From NCBI GenBank assembly GCA_030834835.1, contig JAUQXD010001340.1:1-13682 (forward strand): a stretch of DNA of 13,682 nucleotides. The letters run 5' to 3'. Made by a program: the position numbers and the translations under genes. The notes beneath the pieces are model-generated. The model was not told the origin of the DNA. It worked only from the letters and a program-made list of their open reading frames with translations, and made no database searches. This document shows, one piece after another, positions 2,068-13,682 of this stretch. The stretch is from Thermoflexales bacterium (lineage in GTDB: Bacteria; Chloroflexota; Anaerolineae; Fen-1058). Position 1 is the stretch's first letter. Each line of letters opens with the position of its first letter.

Positions 2068-2111
2068 TTTGTTTCGAAGATGCCAGAGAGTGCAGGCGGT
2101 CACGCACAGAT

Positions 2112-2336
2112 ATGGTCAATCCGTACGGTGAAGTGCCGCTGGTGGAATCGCTGCCGAAGCCGGTGATTGAGTTGCCAGTCATTACCTCCGGAGAGGGACG
2201 CGTCGTGGCGGAGGGCAAGGTCGAGTACGGGACGACGGATATGTTCGGGAATCCCCTCCAGACGGATTTGTTTGGGGAGGTGGTGACATCGAAGAGGGGA
2301 AAGAAGAGGGGAGGAAGAAATGACGCTCCAATCTAA
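2112..2336 (+). CDS. Small unrecognised protein or 3' remnant with clamp-like motif
   Basis: This 74-residue reading frame runs from ATG 2112. The frame is open further upstream (a TTG at 2028 lies inside the preceding gene), so it could also be the tail of a larger gene cut at a junction near 2067. Residues 41-45 (TTDMF) and 50-54 (QTDLF) are near-copies. The second resembles the beta sliding-clamp pentapeptide, consensus QLDLF, with QADMF in Pol III alpha as a comparison. The C-terminus is rich in Lys/Arg/Gly (SKRGKKRGG). I do not recognise the family. No good Shine-Dalgarno sequence precedes ATG 2112, which favours a remnant. Its last 17 bases overlap the next gene. Confidence 0.4.
   Translation: MVNPYGEVPLVESLPKPVIELPVITSGEGRVVAEGKVEYGTTDMFGNPLQTDLFGEVVTSKRGKKRGGRNDAPI
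2291..2320 (+). promoter_or_regulatory. 30-nt pure purine tract with strong Shine-Dalgarno
   Basis: Thirty consecutive purines precede and touch the ATG at 2320. They contain a direct repeat of GAAGAGGGGA (2291-2300 and 2303-2312) followed by GAGGAAGAA. The GGAGG at 2310-2314 lies 5 nt before the start codon and decides the start of the 2320 gene. On the coding side the tract encodes the basic tail of the preceding reading frame. Confidence 0.7.
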
Positions 2337-2757
2337 TGAACAAGCAGGCCTTGACCAACTCGTTCAAAAATTGCAGGACCTACAATCAGTTGTGAATCGG
2401 CAGTTGCCAACCAGCACGCCAGTTGATTGGCCGGCATGGTGTGCTTTTCTTGCTGACATGAAAAATGCGACAGGAAACCTCCGCAATGAAGCGAGCTTCG
2501 TCGCAACGATGCTGGCCAAGCAGTATATCACAGCCAAGCATAGCGCACTTAATGACTTCGATGCCGAAACCAAATCTCAAAACGCTCCCGGCTTAGATAT
2601 CGATGTACATACCAGTGACAGTAAGCGCATTGTCGCTGAAGTTAAAACGATGAAGCCGAACGGGCCGAATGATTTTGGTGCCAATCAATCCGGTCAGGTT
2701 ATAAAGGATCTGACCAGGCTGGAAGCTACGCCAGCCGATTACAGGTATTTTTCGTGA
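2320..2757 (+). CDS. PD-(D/E)XK nuclease-like protein, C-terminus lost by frameshift
   Basis: The 145-residue product starts with a probable coiled or helical region (residues 5-30). From residue 90 it carries a restriction-endonuclease-fold core: GLDIDV with D93 and D95, then VAEVKT with E107 and K109, then a glutamine-containing helix (FGANQSGQVIKDLTRL). The spacing D-x(11-13)-ExK fits the PD-(D/E)XK superfamily. The frame stops at TGA 2755-2757 in the middle of a predicted beta strand (YRYFS). The natural continuation (FFVTSKRAMQIV...) is present in the -1 frame up to 2840, so the gene is broken by one missing T in the run 2748-2752, or this is a sequencing error. It is the first gene of a compact + strand cluster with an ATPase and a giant helicase. 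The nuclease fold is probable; the substrate is unknown. Confidence 0.75.
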   Translation: MTLQSNEQAGLDQLVQKLQDLQSVVNRQLPTSTPVDWPAWCAFLADMKNATGNLRNEASFVATMLAKQYITAKHSALNDFDAETKSQNAPGLDIDVHTSDSKRIVAEVKTMKPNGPNDFGANQSGQVIKDLTRLEATPADYRYFS

Positions 2758-2840
2758 CGAGCAAACGGGCCATGCAAATTGTTACCGCAAGACAGAAGTA
2801 CAAACAGTACTTAGGCGGCATTGAGGTCGTGTTACTGTAG
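2751..2840 (+). pseudogene. Out-of-frame C-terminal end of the nuclease-like gene
   Basis: Read in the -1 frame from TTC 2751, this stretch gives 29 codons (FVTSKRAMQIVTARQKYKQY and then LGGIEVVLL) before TAG 2838-2840. It completes the core of the upstream nuclease: a hydrophobic strand, a helix, and a final strand ending in VVLL, as is usual at the end of such domains. The repaired protein would be about 173 residues and would end 9 bases before the next gene, which fits normal operon spacing better than the 92-base gap left by the early stop. Confidence 0.8.
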
Positions 2841-2849
2841 GAATCGATT

Positions 2850-4055
2850 ATGCCAGTGGCGAGGCCGCTCATGTCAATCATTCCCGATCCATTTCAGGCG
2901 AAGGTTAAACTCACTGTGCGCGTGAAAGATGGTCTGTTGGAGTTGCTTGCCGGCGTGCCATTTCCGACCTTGCATGAAGGTTCGCTGGGTGATTTGACGG
3001 TCCTTGCTTCGGCCTTTGGGAAGGATCCGATCGTCGCCTGGTTGCGCTATGATGGTGAGATTGGAGTCTTGCCCGAAGGCGAAAAACTTTTGGTGGGCAT
3101 TAACCCAAAGGATACGCCTGGAGAACTGACCGGTAAGCATTTCCCGTTGAAGGATGCACAGAGAAGTGCAGTAGACAATCCGCCCTGGATGCATTACGTT
3201 GAAGTCGTTCTTAAAGAATCGCTTGTCCTTTTGCTACACGGTACAGATAAGCCAACCCTGGCGGACTGTCAGTGCGTAATTCCAGCGCTTGAGCAAGAGG
3301 CAGAGAGTGTCAACCAGGCATACTCACTGGTGTCAATCGCTTTTGAGCCTACGCGCCGAGCACATACGGGCAACGTGTTTGAGCGGGTGTTCAACAAGAA
3401 CGAAAACGGCTTCTGGGTGCCGCTTGATCACTTGCGCGATGACCTTGAGAGGCTGCTTGAACGACGAACACGCTTTGCCTGGCTATATCGCGCTGTGGCG
3501 ATTGAAGCCAATGTATATCCCGGCTTACCTGACATGCAATTGAGGTTATTTGAAGAATCTGACAACCGAGCGCCTACCCTTATCGACTTTCTTCGTCGAT
3601 ACCCCAAACAAGTTGTCGCGGCGTTCAATAGATGCTGCGAAAAGATCGCTGGAATTCCCAAACCGCCGATCACTCTTACTTCATATGACTGGCTTGGCTG
3701 GGAGCAACTCACAATGGTCGCTGCCCAGCTGTCTGCTGAACGGCGCCAGTTGATTTCAGCGGACGGATTAGCAGACTGGGTGGGGCAATCTCTGCTAAAC
3801 ATCTATCGATTGTTAGATAGCGAAGACATCTTCGCTGATGATGATATTCGTCGTATGATGGGTTGGGCCACAGACATGCTGGAATCCATTTGGCAGTCGT
3901 GTGGGAAGTCCGGATTGCGTGCGCGATTAATAAGCATCTTTGAGCAGCTCAACGTGAATCAGCGCTCTCAGTTACTTCAATATGCGCGCTGCTTGAACGA
4001 GTCGAGACCACAGGACGATCGTGAAGTAGTTCGGCCTAACGGAGATAGCAGATGA
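2850..4055 (+). CDS. Unrecognised 401-residue protein of the defence-like cluster
   Basis: I do not recognise this family. Residues about 10-130 look beta-rich, with alternating hydrophobic strands (VKLTVRVKDGLLELLAG, IVAWLRYDGEIGVL, VEVVLKESLVLLLHG). Residues about 140-385 look mainly helical, with charged amphipathic segments such as PLDHLRDDLERLLERR. No P-loop, nuclease, methylase or membrane signature is visible. The ATG at 2850 has AGGA at 2839-2842, 7 nt upstream. A second ATG at 2871, with GAGG just before it, is a possible alternative start. The stop overlaps the start of the ATPase gene by 4 bases (ATGA), so the two proteins are probably translationally coupled and may act together, for example as an adaptor or sensor partner of the ATPase. 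That role is inferred from position only. Confidence 0.85.
   Translation: MPVARPLMSIIPDPFQAKVKLTVRVKDGLLELLAGVPFPTLHEGSLGDLTVLASAFGKDPIVAWLRYDGEIGVLPEGEKLLVGINPKDTPGELTGKHFPLKDAQRSAVDNPPWMHYVEVVLKESLVLLLHGTDKPTLADCQCVIPALEQEAESVNQAYSLVSIAFEPTRRAHTGNVFERVFNKNENGFWVPLDHLRDDLERLLERRTRFAWLYRAVAIEANVYPGLPDMQLRLFEESDNRAPTLIDFLRRYPKQVVAAFNRCCEKIAGIPKPPITLTSYDWLGWEQLTMVAAQLSAERRQLISADGLADWVGQSLLNIYRLLDSEDIFADDDIRRMMGWATDMLESIWQSCGKSGLRARLISIFEQLNVNQRSQLLQYARCLNESRPQDDREVVRPNGDSR
4041..4045 (+). promoter_or_regulatory. Shine-Dalgarno of the STAND ATPase gene
   Basis: GGAGA lies 6 nt before ATG 4052, inside the end of the 401-residue gene. Together with the ATGA overlap it supports the chosen start and translational coupling of the two genes. 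Confidence 0.6.
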
Positions 4056-6901
4056 CCGTCGAAGTATATTTGGGCAAGAAGTTTGAGCATAGTCATGAAC
4101 GCCGGGCGCTGGCCTGGTTTCTCAAAGACATGCTGGCCGGTTTCGGCGATGGCGACACACTGTATCAGGTCATCGTCGAAACAAAGGTCGACTCGGCCGA
4201 CATCGATCTGCTACTCATCAGCCCAACTGCCATCATTCTTGTCGAGTTCAAAGCGTTCGTCCACGCTGAAGAAAGTGAGGCGCAGCAGATTCACGTCGTT
4301 GGCAAACTGAATGATTCCTGGCAGTATGTTCTCCCGAACGGCCGCGAATACACCATCGGCGATCCGGCAAAGCACAGGAACCCATATCGGCAATCGAGCG
4401 GCATGCGCTACGACCTGGCCAACTGGCTGTCAGTCAACAGCCAGTCGATTCTGGGGCGAGCCTGGACAAAAGAAGACGCCCTGGAGCACCTCTGCGCCTG
4501 GGTCGTCGTCTTGCCCGGCTTTGACGGCAATACTTCCGACATTGCGTTGCCGCTTGATGAGCTGAAATTGCATCGCACACCGAGCCGCTGGTTTCAGATC
4601 TTGCCCATCGCACGCCTGGCTGCAGAGTTCGATTGCGCGCCGGACACCGGCCTCCAGTTGACGGATGCGCAGCGAGGACAATTGATCAGCCAGCTGGGCG
4701 TGGCTCGCTGCGACAACCTTCAGGAACTCGTGCCCGGTTATGCGGCGCCTGCACCGCTGTTCAGCAAGCCACCGGAACTTGAAACACTCATTGATCGCGA
4801 AGCACAACGTGACGCGCTACTGAATGCACTGACTAACCCCGCTCAGTCCATAATCGTCATTCAAGGTCTGGCCGGCGTTGGCCGGACGGCTGTCGCAGCC
4901 TGGCTGGTTGCCGAAGCCAACCGGCGCAACTACCGCACTCGCTGGATTGACTGTCGTGATCGCTCTAATCTTACGCTCGATGCCCTCCTCGTAGCCATCT
5001 CGGCTGAAATCGCCGATCTCAAACGCACACTCATTCGCAATCCCGATCAACCGTTGCCTGATCGGCTGGATGCGGCGCTTGAATTTCTAGCAGCGAGGCC
5101 GACATTGCTCGTCTTCGACGATTACCATCTGTTGAATCATCGCGCCGCGGTCGATCAATTCGTCGAACGCGCCACGCGCTATCATGGCGGGTTGTGCATC
5201 GTGCTGACCTCGCGCGAACGGCTGGCCGATGTGCCGTGGTCGGCTGGCGCCGTGTGCGAGCTCGAACTGGATAACTTGTCGCTGGACGCCTTTCGCGACT
5301 TCGTCAACATTCCCGCGCACCATGTCGATCTGAGCGCCGACGATCTCCAGATCGTGTGGCAACGTTTATCCGGCAATCCGCAAGCATTTCTATTGTCTCG
5401 CTCAATGGTTCGGCGCATGAGGCTATTGGGCCAACTCGCACAACTGCCTATCGTTGATTCGGAGGAGCAAGCCAAATCGTTGCTGAGCAACGTCAGCCCT
5501 GAAGCACAGACATTGGCTCAACGCTTATCGGTGCTGCGCACGCGCTTCACATTCGAGACGGTCGCCGCGCTTTCTCAGACGTCGCCCGAGCATGCCAGTG
5601 AATGGTTCCTGGAACTGGTTGACAACTACTGGCTGCAGCCGCAGTCAGCCCAGGAATTTGTCATGATCGAGGTTATCCGCACGGCCTTGCACAGCCGCAT
5701 GACCGATAAAGCTCGCAAAGAAGCGCATCTCAAGGCCGGCGAACATTATCTTACACTGGCGGATAATGCCGCAGCCGAGCAGCCGAAGACCGAGTATCTG
5801 ATCGAAGCGCTTTATCACGTACAGGCAGGCGGTCCACGCAAGCAATTGGTGAAGCGCGCCGACGAGCTTACTGAGTTGCTGGCCAGGGCTGGCGATCGCG
5901 AGCAAGCGTGCGCCATTGCGCAGGTAGCGCTGGCGGTAGCCAGGGAAGAGACCGATTTAGAAAAGCTATGCTACTGGCTCATCAAAACCAGCCGCTTGGA
6001 ATTGGATATGGATCACCGCACGTCGGCCGGACAACTGCTTGATGAAGCTGCGGCCTGTTTGCCTGCCTCAACCAGAAAACTGTCCGCCGACCGTGCTCAG
6101 TCGTGGCAGCAGCTGACCGCGCAGACAGCCCACATGCGCGGCCGTCTGGCCTATCGACAGCGTGACTACAAACAGGCGCAAGCACAATTCACGCAAGGTT
6201 TGCATTTGGCGCAGGACTGCGGTGATGATGTGACGGTTGCCACGTGTTTCACGTTGCTGGGCAGCATTGCCCGGCGGCGCGGCGATTTGGACGAAGCGGC
6301 GCTGCTGGGCAATGAGGCGCTGACCATCGCCCGGCAACTCTCGGATCAGAAATTGATTGCCGATAACCTGGGCCACATCGGTCTGGCCGAGCGTTCACGC
6401 ACACACTATGACAATGCCAAATGGTTGTTCGGCCGGGCATATGAAATAGCCGCGTCAATTAACGATGCCCCGGCGGCCGAGATCTTGTTAGGACACCTGG
6501 GGCGCACCACCATGCTGGCCGGCGACAACGAGGAAGCCGAGCGCATTTTTCGCCGAGCGTTGCGTATGGCGCAGGAACTCCACAGTTCCATGGGCATCCG
6601 CGTTCAAATGTCGAATCTGGCCGAGGTGCTGATCCGGCAGGCCCGCTACATCGAGGCCGAACCCATTGTCATCGAATCGGAACGCCGCAACAACGCAGCG
6701 AACGACCAGATTGGTCTTGCCTGGAATCTAAAACACCGTGGCCAAATAGCGAAGGCACGCGGGCAAATCGACCATGGCAACGATCTGATCAATCAAGGTC
6801 TTGAACGACTGCTCAAACTCGACGACAAAGAGTATGTGGCCGAATTTGAATTCGCTCTGCGGCAGGAATTTCAGTTACCGCTTGGCTTCGATCAAATTTG
6901 A
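4052..6901 (+). CDS. NERD-nuclease / STAND ATPase / TPR protein
   Basis: This 949-residue protein has three parts. Residues about 5-110 form a NERD-type PD-(D/E)XK domain with D50/D52, then E65-F66-K67 (ADIDLLLISP...VEFKAF). Residues about 245-480 form a STAND/NB-ARC-like ATPase: the P-loop is G272-LAGVG-R278-T279, Walker B is VFDD (D356-D357), and a sensor-like LTSRE follows. A winged-helix-like segment lies around 485-550. Residues about 560-930 are helical TPR-like repeats (for example GDLDEAALLGNEALTIARQL). The invariant Walker A lysine is arginine (CGG, 4883-4885), which may weaken or abolish ATP hydrolysis. The architecture of N-terminal nuclease effector, switch ATPase and C-terminal repeat sensor matches antiviral STAND proteins (Avs-like logic) in general form. 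GGAGA at 4041-4045 supports the start. It overlaps the 401-residue gene by 4 bases and is followed 65 bases later by the helicase gene. Confidence 0.88.
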   Translation: MTVEVYLGKKFEHSHERRALAWFLKDMLAGFGDGDTLYQVIVETKVDSADIDLLLISPTAIILVEFKAFVHAEESEAQQIHVVGKLNDSWQYVLPNGREYTIGDPAKHRNPYRQSSGMRYDLANWLSVNSQSILGRAWTKEDALEHLCAWVVVLPGFDGNTSDIALPLDELKLHRTPSRWFQILPIARLAAEFDCAPDTGLQLTDAQRGQLISQLGVARCDNLQELVPGYAAPAPLFSKPPELETLIDREAQRDALLNALTNPAQSIIVIQGLAGVGRTAVAAWLVAEANRRNYRTRWIDCRDRSNLTLDALLVAISAEIADLKRTLIRNPDQPLPDRLDAALEFLAARPTLLVFDDYHLLNHRAAVDQFVERATRYHGGLCIVLTSRERLADVPWSAGAVCELELDNLSLDAFRDFVNIPAHHVDLSADDLQIVWQRLSGNPQAFLLSRSMVRRMRLLGQLAQLPIVDSEEQAKSLLSNVSPEAQTLAQRLSVLRTRFTFETVAALSQTSPEHASEWFLELVDNYWLQPQSAQEFVMIEVIRTALHSRMTDKARKEAHLKAGEHYLTLADNAAAEQPKTEYLIEALYHVQAGGPRKQLVKRADELTELLARAGDREQACAIAQVALAVAREETDLEKLCYWLIKTSRLELDMDHRTSAGQLLDEAAACLPASTRKLSADRAQSWQQLTAQTAHMRGRLAYRQRDYKQAQAQFTQGLHLAQDCGDDVTVATCFTLLGSIARRRGDLDEAALLGNEALTIARQLSDQKLIADNLGHIGLAERSRTHYDNAKWLFGRAYEIAASINDAPAAEILLGHLGRTTMLAGDNEEAERIFRRALRMAQELHSSMGIRVQMSNLAEVLIRQARYIEAEPIVIESERRNNAANDQIGLAWNLKHRGQIAKARGQIDHGNDLINQGLERLLKLDDKEYVAEFEFALRQEFQLPLGFDQI

Positions 6902-6931
6902 TTGGCCGACCTAAAGAAGATCGGTTACTAT

Positions 6932-6952
6932 GAAACGAACCTTATTCGCTTC
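6932..6952 (+). promoter_or_regulatory. Imperfect inverted repeat before the helicase ribosome site
   Basis: GAAACGAA (6932-6939) and TTCGCTTC (6945-6952) can pair with one mismatch around a 5-nt loop. The hairpin ends 4 bases before the Shine-Dalgarno GAGG (6956-6959) of the helicase gene, whose ATG is 7 nt further on. No T run follows, so it is not a typical intrinsic terminator. It could tune helicase translation or mRNA stability, or be chance. Confidence 0.3.
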
Positions 6953-6966
6953 TTCGAGGCTATTAC

Positions 6967-9900
6967 ATGCTCCATCCCATTCGCGCCCTTGATCACGTCA
7001 TTGACTCCTACCGTGACTACCTGACCACGGAATTCCGCGCCCGTGATCCGTTATTGCGGCAGGCGTTGGAAAACGCCCTCGATCGGGCGGGCTTCCTCGC
7101 GCAGGAGCCATTCTTTTCGGCACATCGGCCGTTTCCGCAGAAACAGCGTTGGGCCGATCTCCCTCTCGATCCGAAACTCGCGGCGGCGATCAGCCAGCGG
7201 TCGCGCAGTGACTTCGCCTTTCTGCATCAATCAGACGCCATCACGCACCTGCTGGGCGACACAGCCGGCCCGCTGGTCGTCACTACCGGCACCGGCTCCG
7301 GCAAGACCGAGGCCTTTCTCGCGCCTGTGCTGCAGGCCGCCATTCAAGACGCCGTACAACAGCGCGGAGAGCCGGGTCTCGTCGCGCTGATCCTGTATCC
7401 CATGAACGCCCTCGCCAACGATCAACTGGAGCGCATTCAGGAATACCTCAAGAATTCCGGTTGGGCGGGTAGCGTCGATGTGCAGATGTATAACCGCACC
7501 ACCACCGAGGCCGAACGCGCCGCCATGCGCCAGTCGCCGCCGCACATCCTGCTCACCAACTATCAAATGCTGGAGTATCTGTTGGTGCGGCCCAAAGATC
7601 GTGACAATCTCTTTGCCAATCATCGTCTGCGCTTTCTAGTTTTCGATGAAGTCCACACCTATCGCGGCACGCTGGGCACGCACGTCGCCCTGCTGATCCG
7701 CCGCCTCAAGGCCCACTTACGCCGATCGGTTCCGGCGGCCCCCACGCCCATTTGTGTCGGCACGTCGGCCACAATCAAGAGCGATGATCCCGCCGCGCCG
7801 CGCGAACAAGCCGTGCAAGACTTTTTCGGTCGTCTGGCGGGTGAGCAGCCCGATCGAATCCGCGTCATCAACGAGAGCCGATTGGAACTCGATATCCCGG
7901 CGGACGCGCGTTATGCCACCGCACCATACGCGGCCGTCCCCGACCTCGATGTACCTGAATCTGTTCGGCGGGCCGTGATCGCGCTCTCGGATGCCCCGGC
8001 TGACACGTCCTTGCCCGAAGCCGCCCGCCGCGCCCGGCTGTTGTGGGAGTTGAATGAGTGGCTGGGCGCGGGACCAAAATCGCTGAGCGAACTCGTCGCG
8101 CTGGTACGAGCCACGCCCGCCCGATCGGCCTGGGACGCGATCACGGTCGAGCGCGAGGTGGCCGCCGCCTTGCGCATCGGCGCGGCTTTGCCCGAAGGCA
8201 CGCCCGCGGCGCTGCGGTTGCGGGCGCATCGATTTGTGCGCGGCGGCTGGCAGTTTCACCGCTGCCTCAATCCCGCGTGCGGGGCGCTGTATCCCAAGGG
8301 CGAAGAAAAGTGCAGCCAGTGCGGCACCCGCACCGCGCCCCTCTATTTGTGCCGCAATTGCGGCGCGGACTTCTGGCGCATGAGCGGCCCGATCGACGGA
8401 GCGGGCGACCTGCAGCCCTTTGTGGAAATCAATCCCTACGATCCGGCGAACAATGGTCAGGCCCCGAACGAGTGGTTGCTGTATCAACCCGAACGCTGGA
8501 AAGATGAAGTCTACGAGCCGGATGACGATGAAGACGCCGTGGCTGAAGAACCGACCGAGTATGCGGCCCCGGGCAAACGCCGTCCGGCGTCATCACGCCA
8601 GATCAAGGATTTGCATGGCTCCTTCGATTCAGCGTCACTGCGCTTTGATCTGGAACCGGATGCCTTGCCCCACCGCGCGTCGTTGTTCAACACGCGCAAG
8701 CGCTGCCCGGGCTGCGGTTCCGTCGGCGGGTTGCGGCCGATCATTACGCGCGTCAGCCTGGGCACCTCGGCGGCTGTGAAGGTTCTGGCCGAAGGTCTGA
8801 TGGAAGCGCTGCCGGCTGATCCGCAAGCCGCCGATCACAAGCAGCGGCTATTGGTCTTTGCCGACAGCCGGCAGGATGCGGCGCATCAGGCGCGCTTTGT
8901 GAAGTTCGCGGCCCGCTACGACCGCATGCGCCAGCGTGTCGTGCGTATCCTGCGCGACAAGGGGCCGTTGTCCTTGCAGAAGGTGGTGGAAGAACTGGGC
9001 CGCCTGGGTGTGGAGCATCGCGACAATCCGCGCCTGCCCGACCGCGGCTATCCACGCGGCGAAGAATTGGAAAAAGTCCTGGCGTATGAAGAGGCGCCGC
9101 TGCTGGACGACCTGGCTGTCAACACCCGGTATCGCGCCACGCTGGAGAACCTCGGCCTGGTCGCCGTGCAGTATCGTGACCTCGACGAGTTCATGCGCGA
9201 GCACGGCGCAGAGGTGACCGAATTGTTCGATCTGACACTGGCCCAGGCTGAATATCTGATCGTGCAGTTGCTGGACACCTTCCGGCGCGCGGGCCTGCTG
9301 CACCGTGATCTACTGCGCTTTCACCCGGATGGCGTGAGCAACCAATCGGTTACCTATGCCGCTGAATGGGAGCGCCGCTTGCGCAATCCGGTTGGTCTGC
9401 CCGTGGACGAGGCGGGGCATCCGGCCCTGCAACACTCGGGCAGCGACTTGCCGCCGGGCGTGCTCGTCAAACCGGTCTGGGGCAAAGGTCATACCCCGGC
9501 CACGCCGCAAAAGGTCCTGACCTTGCTGCTGGGTCGCATGTCGGAGACGCCGCCAGATCTTGAGGCCGTGCGCCGGCTCATGTATCTGTTGGGCGATTTC
9601 GGCTATTTGAGAAGCGATGACTTGCACGGTTTCAAGAGTAAGCCCGTGAAGTTGTATCAAGTCAACGACGCGTTGGTGGTGCTGTCGCTGGCGCGTGGGG
9701 ATCGGCGCGCCCAATGCGATACCTGCACGCGCGTGGTGCCAGACAGCCCAAGTGGTCTGCCGTGCCCGCGCTGCAAAGATGGCACACTGCGGCCGCTCAG
9801 CGACGACGAAGTTAGACACTCCCGTTACGCGCGACGCGCCCTGAATCCCGGCGGTGAGCCGCTCGTGGCCGAAGAACATACCGCTCAGATCACGGCCGCC

Positions 9901-12210
9901 AAACGCAAAGTGCTCGAAGATCAGTTCAAGTCCAGGACCGACGCGCTCAATTTCCTGGCGTGTTCACCGACGCTGGAACTGGGCATCGATGTGGGCCAAC
10001 TCGATTCGGTGGTCATGCGCAACGTGCCGCCTCGACCGGACAATTACGCCCAACGCGGCGGGCGGGCCGGCCGGCGCAGCCGGGTCGGCATTGTGCTGGG
10101 CTATACCCGCGCCACACCGCACGATCAATACTTCTTCGATCATCCGGGTGAAATGATCGCCGGTGAAGTGCCCGCGCCGGCGTTCGGTCTGGGCAATCGC
10201 GACGCCTTGCTGCGCCACGTCAACGCCATTGCGTGCGGCCTGGCCGAGCCGGGCCTGGCGGGGCGCATGATCGAGTATGTGACCTTCAAAGGTGAAGTTG
10301 TCGCCGAGCAGCTCGCCGAATTGCTGTCCGGCCTTGAGGCGGCGATCCCGCTGGCGGTGGACGTGGCGCTGGATGCCTTCGGCGCCGATGCTTTGTCAGA
10401 GGCCGCTTTCTCGCGTGAGGATCTCCGGGCCGCTTTGGAGCAATTGCCCGCCAGGGTCAAAGACGCGATCGAGCGTACTGCTCTGCAGGTGCAGAAACTG
10501 CATGCCTCCATGGACGCCGCCTATGAAACCGGCCAGCAGGCCCGGGTGGCCAATCGGTCGATGGACATGATCAACAAATTGCTCGGTGTGCAAACTGAGC
10601 AAAACCGGACCGACGAAGCCAACGACATGGGGGCCGCCTATCCTTTGCGGCGTCTGGCTGAATTCGGTCTGCTACCCGGCTATGAGTTCCCCGTCCAACC
10701 GGCCACGCTGCGGTTGCTGGGCGACGCCGATGAATGGAGCACGCTCTCCACGGCTCGCTCGACCGGCCTGCGCCAGTATGAACCTGGTGCGCCGGTGTAT
10801 GCCCGCGGCAAGCGCTGGAAGGTGTTTGGCGTTGATCTGTCTTCGCCGTGGAATCCGCAGGGCAAGCAAACCGCCTGGTACTATACCCAATGTCCAACCT
10901 GCAAGTTGGTCTACGATCCTCAGGAAGACGCCCGTTGTCCGCGCTGCAGCCAGGCCTCGGCGGGTCAGCCGCGCCCGGCCTACGCCTACGCCGGTTTCCT
11001 GGCGCGGGTCGATGAATCGGCTGTGGCGGACGAAGAAGATCGCGTGGGCAATGCGGACCGCGTGCAGATTCACCCCTCCTGGCATGCCGAGCAAATGATC
11101 GGCAAGTGGCGCTTGCCCGAAGGCTGGCGGCTTGAACTGCGGCGTGGGGAAGTCGTGCGCTGGGTCAACGCCGGGCCGCTCAAAGACCCGACCAACAAAG
11201 ACGGCGATCGGGTGGCCTACATGATCTGTCCGCAATGCGGCAAACTGTTGACCCCGCTTGAAGAGCCGGCGGGGCCGAAGAGCAAGCGCAAGGGGAGCAA
11301 GGCCCCGGCGCGCGGCAATCAAGAAGATGGTTACGGCCACGCCCAGAATTGCACCTTGAAAGGCCAGCCCGGCGACACGGGCGCGATATTCGCCGAAGAC
11401 AAAGTGGAGACCCTGCGACTGTTGTTCCCGTGGGCCGGGACACCTGATCAAGACCAGGCACTTAGGTCCTGGGCAATCACACTCGGTGAAGCGATCCTGG
11501 CTGGGGCAGAGCGGCACTTCGCTTTGTCGGGCAACGATCTTAACGCACTATGGGAAGGTGCACATGAAATTAAGCACAGCGACGTCGTGAGCTGCCAGGG
11601 TGTGTTGACCTTTATCGATCCTAATCTGGGCGGCAGCGGTTATCTGCGCAAACTGGCTGAGGAGTTCGATCAAGTGGCGCGCGCGGCCTTGCAACATCTT
11701 GATCATGACGGTTGCGAGACGGCCTGCTATCGCTGCTTGAAAACTTACCTCAATCAACGCTGGCATGGTGTATTGCGCTGGCCGGTGGTGACCGCGACGC
11801 TGCAAGGGCTGGCCGAAGCTACTCCTGAAGCCACCCCCCTGACTGCGCAGGACATCAACGATTCCGCCCCCTGGCAGCAGGCCTTTGCGGCCGGCTGTGC
11901 CTCACCGTTAGAATATCGCTGTATGCAAGTGTTGGAACAAGCCGGGTTCTCCCCAGCCAGACAATATGCCATTCGGGATGGCGCTGGCTTGCCTTTCACG
12001 GTTGCCGACTTCGCCTTTCCCGATCAACGCGTGGCGATCTACGTGGATGGTGTCGCTTTTCATACGGGCGATCGACTGCGGCGTGATCGAACGATTGAGC
12101 AACGCTTGCAGAGCATGGCGAATCCATGGAAAGTGCTGCGAGTAAAAGCAAAAGACATATATCAAGACCAGAACGACCTGATCGGGCGAATGAAATCTGC
12201 ACTTCCGTGA
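6967..12210 (+). CDS. Giant DExH helicase with DUF1998 and C-terminal nuclease (DruE/MrfA-like)
   Basis: The 1747-residue protein is a superfamily 2 helicase. RecA1 spans residues about 85-300: motif I is TTGTGSGKT with K113, motif Ia LYPMNALAND, motif II D227-E-V-H230, motif III GTSAT. RecA2 starts at LLVFADSR (628) and carries ELGIDVG (about 1004-1010) and motif VI QRGGRAGR (1029-1036), with a long insert between. Cysteine clusters that look like zinc ribbons occur at 433/438/449/452/462/465, 580/583, 917/920/933/936, 1309/1312/1324/1327 and 1421/1424 with H1458/C1462. C1583/C1587/C1590 (CETACYRCL) is the DUF1998 motif. Residues about 1650-1747 form a DUF559/Vsr-like nuclease: ADFAF (D1681), IYVDG (D1694), H1699, and a final VLRVKAKDI strand. 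Large DUF1998 helicases define Druantia (DruE) and resemble DISARM DrmA/DrmB and the repair helicase MrfA. Here the likely role is translocation on invading or damaged DNA coupled to cleavage. The helicase call is firm; the defence role is inferred. Confidence 0.93.
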   Translation: MLHPIRALDHVIDSYRDYLTTEFRARDPLLRQALENALDRAGFLAQEPFFSAHRPFPQKQRWADLPLDPKLAAAISQRSRSDFAFLHQSDAITHLLGDTAGPLVVTTGTGSGKTEAFLAPVLQAAIQDAVQQRGEPGLVALILYPMNALANDQLERIQEYLKNSGWAGSVDVQMYNRTTTEAERAAMRQSPPHILLTNYQMLEYLLVRPKDRDNLFANHRLRFLVFDEVHTYRGTLGTHVALLIRRLKAHLRRSVPAAPTPICVGTSATIKSDDPAAPREQAVQDFFGRLAGEQPDRIRVINESRLELDIPADARYATAPYAAVPDLDVPESVRRAVIALSDAPADTSLPEAARRARLLWELNEWLGAGPKSLSELVALVRATPARSAWDAITVEREVAAALRIGAALPEGTPAALRLRAHRFVRGGWQFHRCLNPACGALYPKGEEKCSQCGTRTAPLYLCRNCGADFWRMSGPIDGAGDLQPFVEINPYDPANNGQAPNEWLLYQPERWKDEVYEPDDDEDAVAEEPTEYAAPGKRRPASSRQIKDLHGSFDSASLRFDLEPDALPHRASLFNTRKRCPGCGSVGGLRPIITRVSLGTSAAVKVLAEGLMEALPADPQAADHKQRLLVFADSRQDAAHQARFVKFAARYDRMRQRVVRILRDKGPLSLQKVVEELGRLGVEHRDNPRLPDRGYPRGEELEKVLAYEEAPLLDDLAVNTRYRATLENLGLVAVQYRDLDEFMREHGAEVTELFDLTLAQAEYLIVQLLDTFRRAGLLHRDLLRFHPDGVSNQSVTYAAEWERRLRNPVGLPVDEAGHPALQHSGSDLPPGVLVKPVWGKGHTPATPQKVLTLLLGRMSETPPDLEAVRRLMYLLGDFGYLRSDDLHGFKSKPVKLYQVNDALVVLSLARGDRRAQCDTCTRVVPDSPSGLPCPRCKDGTLRPLSDDEVRHSRYARRALNPGGEPLVAEEHTAQITAAKRKVLEDQFKSRTDALNFLACSPTLELGIDVGQLDSVVMRNVPPRPDNYAQRGGRAGRRSRVGIVLGYTRATPHDQYFFDHPGEMIAGEVPAPAFGLGNRDALLRHVNAIACGLAEPGLAGRMIEYVTFKGEVVAEQLAELLSGLEAAIPLAVDVALDAFGADALSEAAFSREDLRAALEQLPARVKDAIERTALQVQKLHASMDAAYETGQQARVANRSMDMINKLLGVQTEQNRTDEANDMGAAYPLRRLAEFGLLPGYEFPVQPATLRLLGDADEWSTLSTARSTGLRQYEPGAPVYARGKRWKVFGVDLSSPWNPQGKQTAWYYTQCPTCKLVYDPQEDARCPRCSQASAGQPRPAYAYAGFLARVDESAVADEEDRVGNADRVQIHPSWHAEQMIGKWRLPEGWRLELRRGEVVRWVNAGPLKDPTNKDGDRVAYMICPQCGKLLTPLEEPAGPKSKRKGSKAPARGNQEDGYGHAQNCTLKGQPGDTGAIFAEDKVETLRLLFPWAGTPDQDQALRSWAITLGEAILAGAERHFALSGNDLNALWEGAHEIKHSDVVSCQGVLTFIDPNLGGSGYLRKLAEEFDQVARAALQHLDHDGCETACYRCLKTYLNQRWHGVLRWPVVTATLQGLAEATPEATPLTAQDINDSAPWQQAFAAGCASPLEYRCMQVLEQAGFSPARQYAIRDGAGLPFTVADFAFPDQRVAIYVDGVAFHTGDRLRRDRTIEQRLQSMANPWKVLRVKAKDIYQDQNDLIGRMKSALP
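11899..12207 (+). other. C-terminal DUF559/Vsr-like nuclease domain of the helicase
   Basis: Residues about 1645-1747 form a separate compact domain after DUF1998, beginning near SPLEYRCMQVLEQAGF. The order is helix, strand (VADFAFPDQ, D1681), strand (RVAIYVDGVAFH, D1694 and H1699), basic helix (DRLRRDRTIEQRLQSM) and strand (WKVLRVKA). This is the layout of DUF559/Vsr-type PD-(D/E)XK enzymes. The position that is usually Glu in the ExDG motif is Tyr1692, so catalysis may rely on the two aspartates and the histidine, as in Vsr-like variants, or may be impaired. Confidence 0.7.
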
Positions 12211-12556
12211 ATTGATGACAATCCTAGTTTGAGGCGCTACTCTTCGAACGAAAACGAACGCATCCAGTGTGTGTGGCTGCATGGGCTGAGACGATCGGTT
12301 CTGTCAAGAGCAGCGTTGTGCGCACCGAAAAAGGAAGATTTGGATACATAAGGATATTGGACGAGAGCCTCTAGTTCTAGAAGTAGGATGGGAGTTGTAA
12401 ACACATGCTGTACAGATTAAAGAATGGCGATCGGCCACAATGGAGATCGAGCGGAGAGTGATGGACGATAGTCAACTGTCCAGACTGCAAGCAATAATAC
12501 GCAAAATGCGAAGTTAACCGCGGGGGTAAATATGCAATCACAAGGGATTATCTTAC
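12211..12556 (+). other. Intergenic stretch without a confident gene
   Basis: These 346 bases between the helicase and the membrane protein gene hold no tRNA, no clear terminator hairpin with a T run and no intact long frame. A small inverted repeat TCTAG-TT-CTAGA lies at 12370-12381. The part from 12405 onward has protein-like content interrupted by stops and is listed separately. The AT content is higher than in the helicase gene. Confidence 0.6.
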
Positions 12557-12562
12557 TTGAAA
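12405..12562 (+). pseudogene. Possible decayed zinc-ribbon micro-gene
   Basis: From ATG 12405, preceded by GGGAG at 12390-12394, the frame reads MLYRLKNGDRPQWRSSGE and then TGA (12459-12461). It continues in the same frame as WTIVNCPDCKQ, TAA (12495-12497), then YAKCEVNRGGKYAITRDYLT and TGA. The pieces look like one small protein with CPDC plus a third cysteine. Two in-frame stops make it a probable pseudogene. Chance is a real alternative because the stretch is short. Confidence 0.3.
12542..12547 (+). promoter_or_regulatory. Shine-Dalgarno deciding a TTG start
   Basis: AAGGGA sits 9 nt before TTG 12557 and is the only ribosome-site-like sequence placed correctly for the long open frame that follows. 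It decides the TTG start because the only nearby ATG (12532) is in another frame that closes after about 50 codons. Confidence 0.5.
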
Positions 12563-13682
12563 TCACCATTGACTTATATCATCACCTTTCTTCATCGATA
12601 TTGGCGTGCATTTATCATCTCGATACTGGGTGTAGCAGGATTCGGTATTTATCTAGTTGGGTACAATTCTCAAGCCCGTGACGCTGGGATTCCCACACAA
12701 TTCACGCAAGAGCAGGCCAAGACATTGGCCCGCAGTTTTCTCGAAATCCAAGGTTACACTCTCGCGCCAGAGCCCCTTACAGTACTCGAAGAACAAGACA
12801 CTCAGGGCTACCGTTATCTCATTCAGCTGCTGGGAGCAGTAGATGCCGTCGAAGTCATTCGAACCCAGTCGCTGCCGCTGGTCTATTGGCGCATTGCATG
12901 GTCAACAGCAGATTATGCCGGTTGGTTCACGGTTGATGTCGGACTCAATGGCCGCGTCATAGGGTTCCAAGTGCCAGCTAAGTTCCAAGATTTTGGTGCG
13001 AACCTGCCGACTCTTGAAGCAGCGCGCCAGAGAGCGTCTGAATATCTTTCGGCCCTGCAAGACTGGGCCCCGGCTGAATGGCAGCTCATATCTAAGACTT
13101 ACTCGATTCAGTCGGGAACACGGGCCGACTATAGCTTCGAATGGCAATATAAGGCAGCCGATTGGTCGCGGGCGCTTCGATTGGCCGTGACGCTACAGGG
13201 CAACATTATCACTCAATATCGACGTTATCTTCAGGTTCCAGATGATTTTGCGGCGGCAACCGGCACAATTCGTACCCTGGCTCTCTCGATTAACGACACT
13301 GCGTTCAACTTAAGTAAGGCCCTAGTTCTCATTGCAAGCATAGTAATCTACTATCGGACAGCACGATACGGGCCAATACCTTGGCATACCGATTGGATCG
13401 TTGTCACTATTTTAGTCATAATCAGCACGTTGAAATGGCTCAATGACTGGCCACCAATTTCAACGTCGTATGATGTCACTCAGTCCACCGGTCTTTGGGT
13501 TGTCGACCTTGCTGTAAGCTGGCTTCAGTCAGTCGTTGCCGATGCGGGTACACTCTTTCTGTTATGGAAAGGCGGTACACTTCTAGGCCGCAAAGTGCAA
13601 CCACGTCGTAACTGGCTACTATTGCGCAGCGGCAATCGTTTGGAGTCGCTTGCGCACTCCTACTGGCGCGGGCTAGTTCTCG
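12557..13682 (+). CDS. Membrane protein with duplicated extracytoplasmic domain, 3' end missing (possible CPBP protease)
   Basis: The frame is open from TAA 12527-12529 to the window end, with no ATG near its beginning. TTG 12557 is the best start: AAGGGA at 12542-12547 lies 9 nt upstream, and the product begins with a short basic cytoplasmic end and then a transmembrane helix (residues 18-36, AFIISILGVAGFGIYLVGY). Two related domains follow, each starting with a helix of the pattern QAKTLARSFLEIQGYTL (from about 48) or EAARQRASEYLSALQDW (from about 152) and then strands; they look PepSY-like. At least three more membrane segments occur near 255-266, 280-294 and 313-334. This layout is known from Chloroflexota proteins ending in a CPBP (Abi) glutamic intramembrane protease domain, but the catalytic motifs would lie beyond the window, so that call is a guess. 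There is no sign that it belongs to the upstream operon. Confidence 0.8.
   Translation, partial: MKSPLTYIITFLHRYWRAFIISILGVAGFGIYLVGYNSQARDAGIPTQFTQEQAKTLARSFLEIQGYTLAPEPLTVLEEQDTQGYRYLIQLLGAVDAVEVIRTQSLPLVYWRIAWSTADYAGWFTVDVGLNGRVIGFQVPAKFQDFGANLPTLEAARQRASEYLSALQDWAPAEWQLISKTYSIQSGTRADYSFEWQYKAADWSRALRLAVTLQGNIITQYRRYLQVPDDFAAATGTIRTLALSINDTAFNLSKALVLIASIVIYYRTARYGPIPWHTDWIVVTILVIISTLKWLNDWPPISTSYDVTQSTGLWVVDLAVSWLQSVVADAGTLFLLWKGGTLLGRKVQPRRNWLLLRSGNRLESLAHSYWRGLVL

Follow-up and report, generated by a model that had tools for sequence, protein, structure and literature searches.

A cargo-bearing ArmB-ArmC junction in a probably ARMADA-derived defence operon of a Thermoflexales bacterium

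Do four tightly packed genes of a Thermoflexales bacterium form a defence system of their own, or do they belong to a known system whose gene content varies among relatives? The genes lie on contig JAUQXD010001340.1 of assembly GCA_030834835.1, whose 13,682 nucleotides were analysed as a whole and are referred to here as the window, and encode a PD-(D/E)XK-type nuclease, a 401-residue protein (p401), a protein combining NERD, STAND NTPase and TPR domains (NERD-STAND) and a giant helicase. A sequence-only reading of the window had placed them on the forward strand, with a 4-base overlap between the second and third (4052-4055) and 65 bases between the end of NERD-STAND at 6901 and the helicase start at 6967, all of which our analysis confirmed, and had taken them for a single undescribed defence operon. 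We favour another interpretation, to which we assign a probability of about 0.62: the region is the junction between ArmB and ArmC of an operon derived from the ARMADA defence system, carrying a cargo module (nuclease, p401 and NERD-STAND) that has been exchanged or duplicated through the ends of the core genes. The source of the window (contig C979) is a metagenome-assembled genome (MAG), here G000, of 6.48 Mb in 1452 contigs, with a completeness of 90.7 and a contamination of 7.0.

As described in PMC12458937, ARMADA comprises ArmA, a BrxHII-like helicase, ArmB, a PglX-like methylase, and ArmC, a YprA-like helicase carrying a Vsr nuclease. In type II the gene after ArmC is ArmD, which joins a RelE-like toxin domain to a UvrD-family helicase, and all four genes of an E. 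coli type II system are needed according to this preprint, which also places the Druantia protein DruE on the same YprA branch. The helicase of the window contains DEAD, Helicase_C and MZB (DUF1998) domains (Pfam), and its C-terminus matches REase_MTES_1575 below Pfam's cut-off (E 1.8e-6); among the related loci (numbered L) this match was similar or weaker in L018, L019, L020 and L044 and absent from L045. Residues D1681, D1694, H1699 and D1707 of the C-terminal segment are invariant in all six aligned rows, and a comparison of this segment with the PDB returned no meaningful match. Its best PADLOC matches are the DruE models DruE1 and DruE3. The DruE-like helicase-nuclease and the defence context proposed earlier are supported. 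In a tree of 30 relatives the window helicase falls in a clade of nine rows, with a support of 100 in the Shimodaira-Hasegawa-like approximate likelihood ratio test (SH-aLRT), made up of the pairs window+L018 and L019+L020 together with L021, L022, L063, L028 and L044. Upstream of the helicase gene, an ArmB methyltransferase is found in L020, L028 and L044, and ArmA as well in L020 and L044. The L020 gene comes after a DrmD/BrxHII-like helicase and a DrmMI-like methyltransferase; the same two types of gene lie upstream in L044, from a Pseudanabaena plasmid, where the next gene encodes a ParE-toxin domain and a UvrD domain; and L028 carries upstream a DrmMI-like gene and a UvrD-type gene, the latter 48% identical to that of L044. 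On this gene composition, and on the ARMADA description in PMC12458937, the window helicase looks like an ArmC-type protein, our tree being built from the relatives collected here and separate from the published ARMADA set. Its nearest named relatives are from Anaerolineae/Chloroflexi MAGs, and such helicases occur in 11 of 400 genomes sampled across the phylum (E 1e-50) and in 11 of 376 sampled across the class (profile, E 1e-80), the window's own included both times; in these samples the best two candidates per genome were scored.

The second element linking the locus to ARMADA is an open reading frame (ORF) of 74 amino acids (aa) at 2112-2336, just upstream of the four genes, which the sequence-only reading had overlooked. 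Over 70 residues, its product shares 74% identity with the C-terminal end of the intact ArmB encoded by contig C121 of G489, a genome of the same family, and the underlying DNA (2119-2323) is 85.9% identical to that gene, the closest intact ArmB. A stand-alone conserved peptide, as which this ORF had been considered, was dropped in favour of the C-terminal end of ArmB, readable in the window as its 3' end. Since this end lies just before the four genes, the nuclease, p401 and NERD-STAND occupy the slot between ArmB and ArmC. The coordinates of these features are collected in the table.

Table. Features at the ArmB-ArmC junction of the window
Feature	Position	Strand	Basis or remark
ArmB 3' end (DrmMI/PglX-like methyltransferase)	2106..2323	+	tblastn to L020 ArmB residues 1331-1406
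PD-(D/E)XK-type nuclease, first piece, 145 aa (cargo gene 1)	2320..2757	+	second piece, in another frame, to 2840
p401, function unassigned by any profile (cargo gene 2)	2871..4055	+	start at Met8 by homology; 2850 possible
NERD - STAND NTPase - TPR protein, 949 aa (cargo gene 3)	4052..6901	+	Pfam; PADLOC PDC-M16A N-terminally
Probable ArmC-type YprA/DUF1998 helicase, 1747 aa, putative C-terminal PD-(D/E)XK (MTES_1575-like)	6967..12210	+	Pfam, PADLOC, trees, operon context of clade-mates

The content of this slot differs within the ArmC clade, which argues against the four genes being one system. The gene directly before ArmC could be read in eight of the nine clade rows, the contig of L063 ending too soon. 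In L020 the helicase follows ArmA-ArmB with 11 bp in between and no cargo, and L018, with the closest ArmC (78% identical), has in place of the window's module an HSDR_N gene that matches Avs2 weakly and is interrupted by one frameshift and one stop. NERD-STAND recurs in L019, with the contig end upstream; L022 carries AbiEi and AbiEii, and L021 a partial protein of PADLOC family HEC-05, the family of the GmrSD_N protein that L028 holds beside its UvrD-type gene (upstream, both L021 and L022 run off their contigs). In L044 the slot contains the ParE-toxin/UvrD gene and, on the opposite strand, a small gene for a DUF559 protein. Given its ParE-toxin domain and its 48% identity to the L028 gene, the L044 gene is ArmD-like, and the slot therefore holds core-type as well as cargo genes: some are ArmD-like core genes in another order, since ArmD is described after ArmC in type II and here it comes before, and others are cargo. 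Because this gene also strengthens the link to ARMADA, the odds that we give to the junction stay the same. Outside the tree, the partial locus L023 has ArmC straight after ArmB and L029 a UvrD-type gene in the gap; in other parts of the helicase tree, L065, L067 and L070 likewise have a ParE-UvrD gene before the helicase. We found no publication describing an ArmB-ArmC slot in the open-licence literature. As for the neighbourhood that had been expected to recur, NERD-STAND stands beside an ArmC-type helicase in both loci where its context could be read (window and L019), and for p401 and the nuclease the window is the one locus that could be read. The neighbours vary from locus to locus, but they are mostly defence-like, and the named relative that emerged is ARMADA, not the Druantia subtype that had been held up as the alternative.

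The G+C content of the three cargo genes is 0.48-0.58, against 0.63 for the helicase. The nuclease ORF stops early, and its three homologs (P0020-P0022, 172-216 aa) run on into sequence for which the window uses another frame, the two pieces aligning apart; because the homologs continue in that frame, the frameshift already suspected from the sequence is confirmed and belongs to this assembly. Pfam returned NOV_C alone for this protein, below the cut-off (E 0.013), and a D...ExK stretch was read by eye, which we take to be the PD-(D/E)XK nuclease motif. The N-terminal extension of P0020, from another contig of 1659 bp, resembles the ArmB tail by eye. For p401, at least two homologs at 65% identity were retrieved (7995 candidates sharing most words were scored), and as two of them begin at its Met8, translation probably starts at 2871 and not at 2850. 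In agreement with its earlier description as unrecognised, p401 matched nothing in Pfam, PADLOC or NCBIfam, nor in the PDB up to E 5, and its AlphaFold model (three rows) was useless, with a predicted local distance difference test score (pLDDT) of 32. Both p401 and NERD-STAND (E 1e-20, the best two candidates per genome scored) were detected in one of the 400 phylum genomes, the window's own. Viral contigs yielded two distant relatives of the helicase and none of p401 or NERD-STAND, and the nine plasmid records retrieved with NERD-STAND were all TPR matches spanning at most 27% of the query.

The architecture of NERD-STAND was borne out by its Pfam domains (NERD, AAA_16/AAA_22 and TPR), by a ten-row alignment and by its structural model. 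Its relatives include at least eight that align over 99-100% of its length, with identities of 47-92%; at least seven weaker matches are to different proteins that contain repeats or an NTPase domain. D52, E65 and K67 are invariant in all ten rows, two of which are nearly identical, and the Walker A motif reads GxGRT in eight rows and GxGKT in two. Residues 1-218 match the PADLOC candidate PDC-M16A (E 1.3e-10), a match spanning positions 1-185 of the 895 of that model. In a Foldseek search with the model (pLDDT 71.7, predicted template modelling score 0.49), the STAND-TPR structure 6mfv (PH0952) ranked first (E 2.3e-13, template modelling (TM) score of the query 0.24), Avs3 (8dgc) 19th (E 1.6e-8, 0.20) and Avs5 (9jap) 50th (E 2.5e-6, 0.16). 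An N-terminal effector, a STAND NTPase and repeats are also the plan of Avs proteins, a likeness of architecture that singles out no named Avs type: the effector is here a NERD domain, the repeats are TPRs, most rows have the Walker A arginine, TM-scores are low and PADLOC's Avs models gave no match with the protein. The ratio of non-synonymous to synonymous substitution rates (dN/dS, own script) is 0.10 for NERD-STAND against L019 and 0.13 for the helicase against L018, from which we conclude that both genes are under purifying selection.

The comparison of the window with L019 bears on the movement of the cargo. Their NERD-STAND genes are 85% identical in protein and 81.5% in DNA; their helicase genes share 63.6% of the DNA, compared with 75.8% between the window and L018. 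A tree forced to unite the window with L019, a pairing chosen for the shared NERD-STAND gene and tested after the ArmC tree had been seen, was rejected (approximately unbiased test, p-AU 0.0001). NERD-STAND therefore stands before two different ArmC alleles, and the cargo has moved. The first 450 bases of the helicase gene are 91.8% identical between the window and L018, with a synonymous divergence (dS) of 0.32 over the first 150 codons against 1.12 overall, which looks like a recent exchange of the 5' end, although a slower-evolving 5' end might give the same picture.

Beside cargo, pieces of core-gene ends occur in two MAGs. G489 (MAG fen_1063) contains stretches found letter for letter in L018 and L019, and its contig C121 carries in order the C-terminal part of an Argonaute, a 477-aa gene, the intact ArmB, a secreted-type protein with RCC1 repeats, a joint of core ends and a TmtA-like gene leaving the contig. 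At this joint, a 78-bp ArmC 5' end runs directly into a 260-bp ArmB 3' end, with four bases shared. A 95-bp ArmC 5' end lies before NERD-STAND at the start of L019, and further ArmB 3' fragments are present in L018 and near the end of contig C436 of G489, whose other ORFs matched none of the ARMADA or cargo queries. A scan of 30 sequences (29 of the 88 loci plus the window), with matches inside the core genes themselves set aside, found fragments in the window, L018, L019, L085 (the C121 locus) and L030, which belongs to another family and has an ArmA 5' and an ArmB 3' fragment; within the window's family, two of five genomes, G000 and G489, gave core-end matches. With differences of roughly 5-16% between them, the copies do not look like simple chimeras of a single sequence. 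Tandem duplication or exchange, with an ArmB 3' end and an ArmC 5' end as the limits of the unit, is the simplest reading that these fragments suggest. A simple truncation of ArmB, which had also been considered for ORF 2112-2336, was set aside, since the second ArmB 3' copy in C121 makes a by-product of duplication or exchange more likely. In L030 (G267) the fragments are followed downstream by a HEAT-ARM-like gene and a shortened ArmC (4084-4580 and 10571-13297); this ArmC of 908 aa keeps both ends and is followed by a papain-like protease gene. L085 and L100 (contigs C121 and C115 of G489) share an exact 26-base end overlap, and the TmtA-like gene of C121 may continue in a 495-aa ORF of C115, after which comes a short ArmB 3' remnant.

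The core genes themselves are incomplete in the assembly of the window. The remainder of ArmB is absent upstream on the contig, and no G000 contig overlapping the window start, on which an intact ArmB might lie, was found. Contig C1149 of G000 carries a 5' part of ArmB (716 aa, 92% identical to that of C121) that runs off the contig end, with a DDE transposase gene before it. ArmA had no convincing match in this 90.7% complete genome, the best being at E 6e-4 and 25% identity; G489 has ArmA-type genes on C74 and on C449, the latter copy frame-broken near its contig end. With ArmA sought and not found and ArmB present in pieces, the locus is not classed as a complete ARMADA but as an ARMADA-derived one with ArmC and an ArmB end. 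Its likeness to ARMADA lies in the ArmC-type helicase and its putative PD-(D/E)XK-like domain at the C-terminus (the match below Pfam's cut-off), in the ArmB end directly upstream of the cargo and in clade-mates with ArmA and ArmB (L020, L044) and an ArmD-like gene (L044), and its difference in the filled slot, in ArmA not being found and in ArmB being present in pieces. Two G489 contigs carry parts of a pAgo_II-like Argonaute, the C-terminal part upstream of ArmB (L085, 11980-13254, minus strand) and the N-terminal part just after ArmA (L086, 113-1219, minus strand); given these positions, an Argonaute may sit between ArmA and ArmB.

How such an operon might work can be outlined by analogy. 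DruE engages 3'-tailed and single-stranded DNA-containing substrates and cuts them, as reported in PMC13192584, and by analogy with this relative ArmC would load on single-stranded or 3'-tailed foreign DNA, translocate and cut it through its C-terminal nuclease, self DNA being marked by ArmB-type methylation. NERD-STAND could provide a second layer, in which the TPR part would recognise a phage protein or a state signalling failure of the first layer, the NTPase would drive assembly and the NERD nuclease would then destroy DNA. Recombination through the ArmB 3' and ArmC 5' ends would account for the exchange or duplication of the cargo itself. A slot gene joining a nuclease to an NTPase occurs in the clade in two forms, NERD-STAND (window and L019) and the broken HSDR_N gene of L018, and a second NERD-STAND pairing is seen in L068, where a more distant ArmC-like helicase is directly followed by a 1534-aa NERD-NACHT-HEAT protein (5418-10022); a working partnership is therefore favoured over chance, although defence islands cluster such genes anyway. 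It is tempting to speculate further that some ARMADA operons are cassette platforms, in which units made of an ArmB 3' end, cargo and an ArmC 5' end are inserted, tandem-duplicated and traded through these end handles, leaving ArmC5'-ArmB3' joints behind, with NERD-STAND, p401 and the nuclease as one cassette and bystander genes sometimes included; this extension is conceivable, at somewhat less than even odds.

Several observations weigh against the cargo-bearing junction as we read it. With ArmA missing and ArmB split between a 5' part elsewhere and a 3' end here, the core may be broken in this genome, and the slot gene of L044 and L028 is arguably core rather than cargo. The fragments of this family come from two MAGs with contaminations of 7% (G000) and 9% (G489), several are located at the end of a contig or close to it (L019, C436), some neighbour genes for secreted-type proteins instead of defence genes, and misassembly of strain variants could also have produced them. 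The nuclease frameshift may be biological or a sequencing error. In NERD-STAND, the arginine in place of the Walker A lysine in eight of ten rows may weaken NTP hydrolysis, the Foldseek matches to STAND proteins are low in TM-score (0.16-0.24 of the query) and stand among many matches to TPR proteins, and its sensor and guard roles are proposals.

Some of these points would equally be expected of a decaying ARMADA remnant, with a broken core, incidental cargo and little function, and the frameshift and stop in the L018 slot gene, the DDE transposase gene preceding the ArmB 5' part and the frame-broken ArmA copy of C449 go in the same direction. The helicase and NERD-STAND are nevertheless of full length and evolve under purifying selection. 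ArmA and ArmB could also have escaped notice because the MAG is fragmented, and the fragments could have been left behind by cargo exchange while an intact ArmB lies nearby, as it does in C121. We hold this explanation to be unlikely. Purifying selection on the helicase and NERD-STAND and the missing ArmA would also suit a self-contained new system, like the single operon proposed in the sequence-only reading. All four products would then cooperate after ArmA and ArmB were shed, the STAND protein sensing and the helicase-nuclease executing; NERD-STAND lies 64-65 bp before ArmC in both readable loci, and the L068 pairing is of the same kind. Against it, the sister ArmC has another slot gene, the ArmC of L019 is sister to that of a cargo-free locus with ArmA-ArmB, p401 and the nuclease have been placed beside ArmC in the window alone, and p401 and NERD-STAND were each detected in one of the 400 genomes of the phylum sample, which makes this reading rather doubtful.

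Two named systems account for the locus still less well. TALON, rare and largely of Chloroflexota according to PMC12458937, combines an ARMADA-like YprA with an inactive RNase H domain at its C-terminus, a NERD nuclease, a TPR-CSD (cold-shock domain) fusion and a TATA-binding protein (TBP), and the window indeed has Chloroflexota relatives and a YprA helicase with NERD and TPR domains nearby. However, NERD and TPR are fused here through a STAND NTPase, none of the seven window proteins scanned has a CSD or TBP match in Pfam, and the helicase C-terminus matches a PD-(D/E)XK profile and not RNase H (although Pfam could miss an RNase H that is inactive and diverged), so that TALON is highly improbable. 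A Druantia subtype is the least probable of all the readings considered. The DruE models that best match the helicase also match the helicases of L020, L044, L045 and L047, which follow ArmA-/ArmB-type genes, and the helicase of the window lies downstream of an ArmB end. Druantia partner genes are DruH in type III, DruA-D in type I and DruM, DruF and DruG in type II; PADLOC matched no Druantia model to the other four proteins of the region (ORF 2112-2336, nuclease, p401 and NERD-STAND).

If the ArmB-ArmC junction is what we propose, the locus moves from a four-gene system of its own to an ARMADA-derived operon with an exchangeable slot, and the gap between ArmB and ArmC becomes a place to look for new defence genes. 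It would then offer a direct test case for layered defence by a core helicase-nuclease and a guard STAND nuclease, and would suggest specifically how defence operons could acquire modules and pass them on when no dedicated integrase is involved. A further lesson is that naming genes by their neighbours may lump cargo together with the core.

The flanks of these loci contain further genes. Directly before the ArmB fragment, the window encodes at 13-2067 a secreted-type PKD-domain protein ending in VYLPVVRR, and the RCC1-repeat protein directly before the joint of C121, a different one, ends in VYLPLIRK. A partial ORF at 12557-13681 of the window (at least 375 aa) contains hydrophobic stretches; up to E 0.1, neither Pfam nor NCBIfam gave a match for it. 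In L019 (8416-14754), genes like ZacA, ZacB and ZacC, as named by PADLOC, come straight after ArmC and before a 1041-aa ORF; our literature search found no paper on Zac. HamA and HamB follow ArmC in L020 (15328-19762), and in L044 a second YprA-like helicase gene (23252-29500, minus strand) is convergent with ArmC and overlaps its end.

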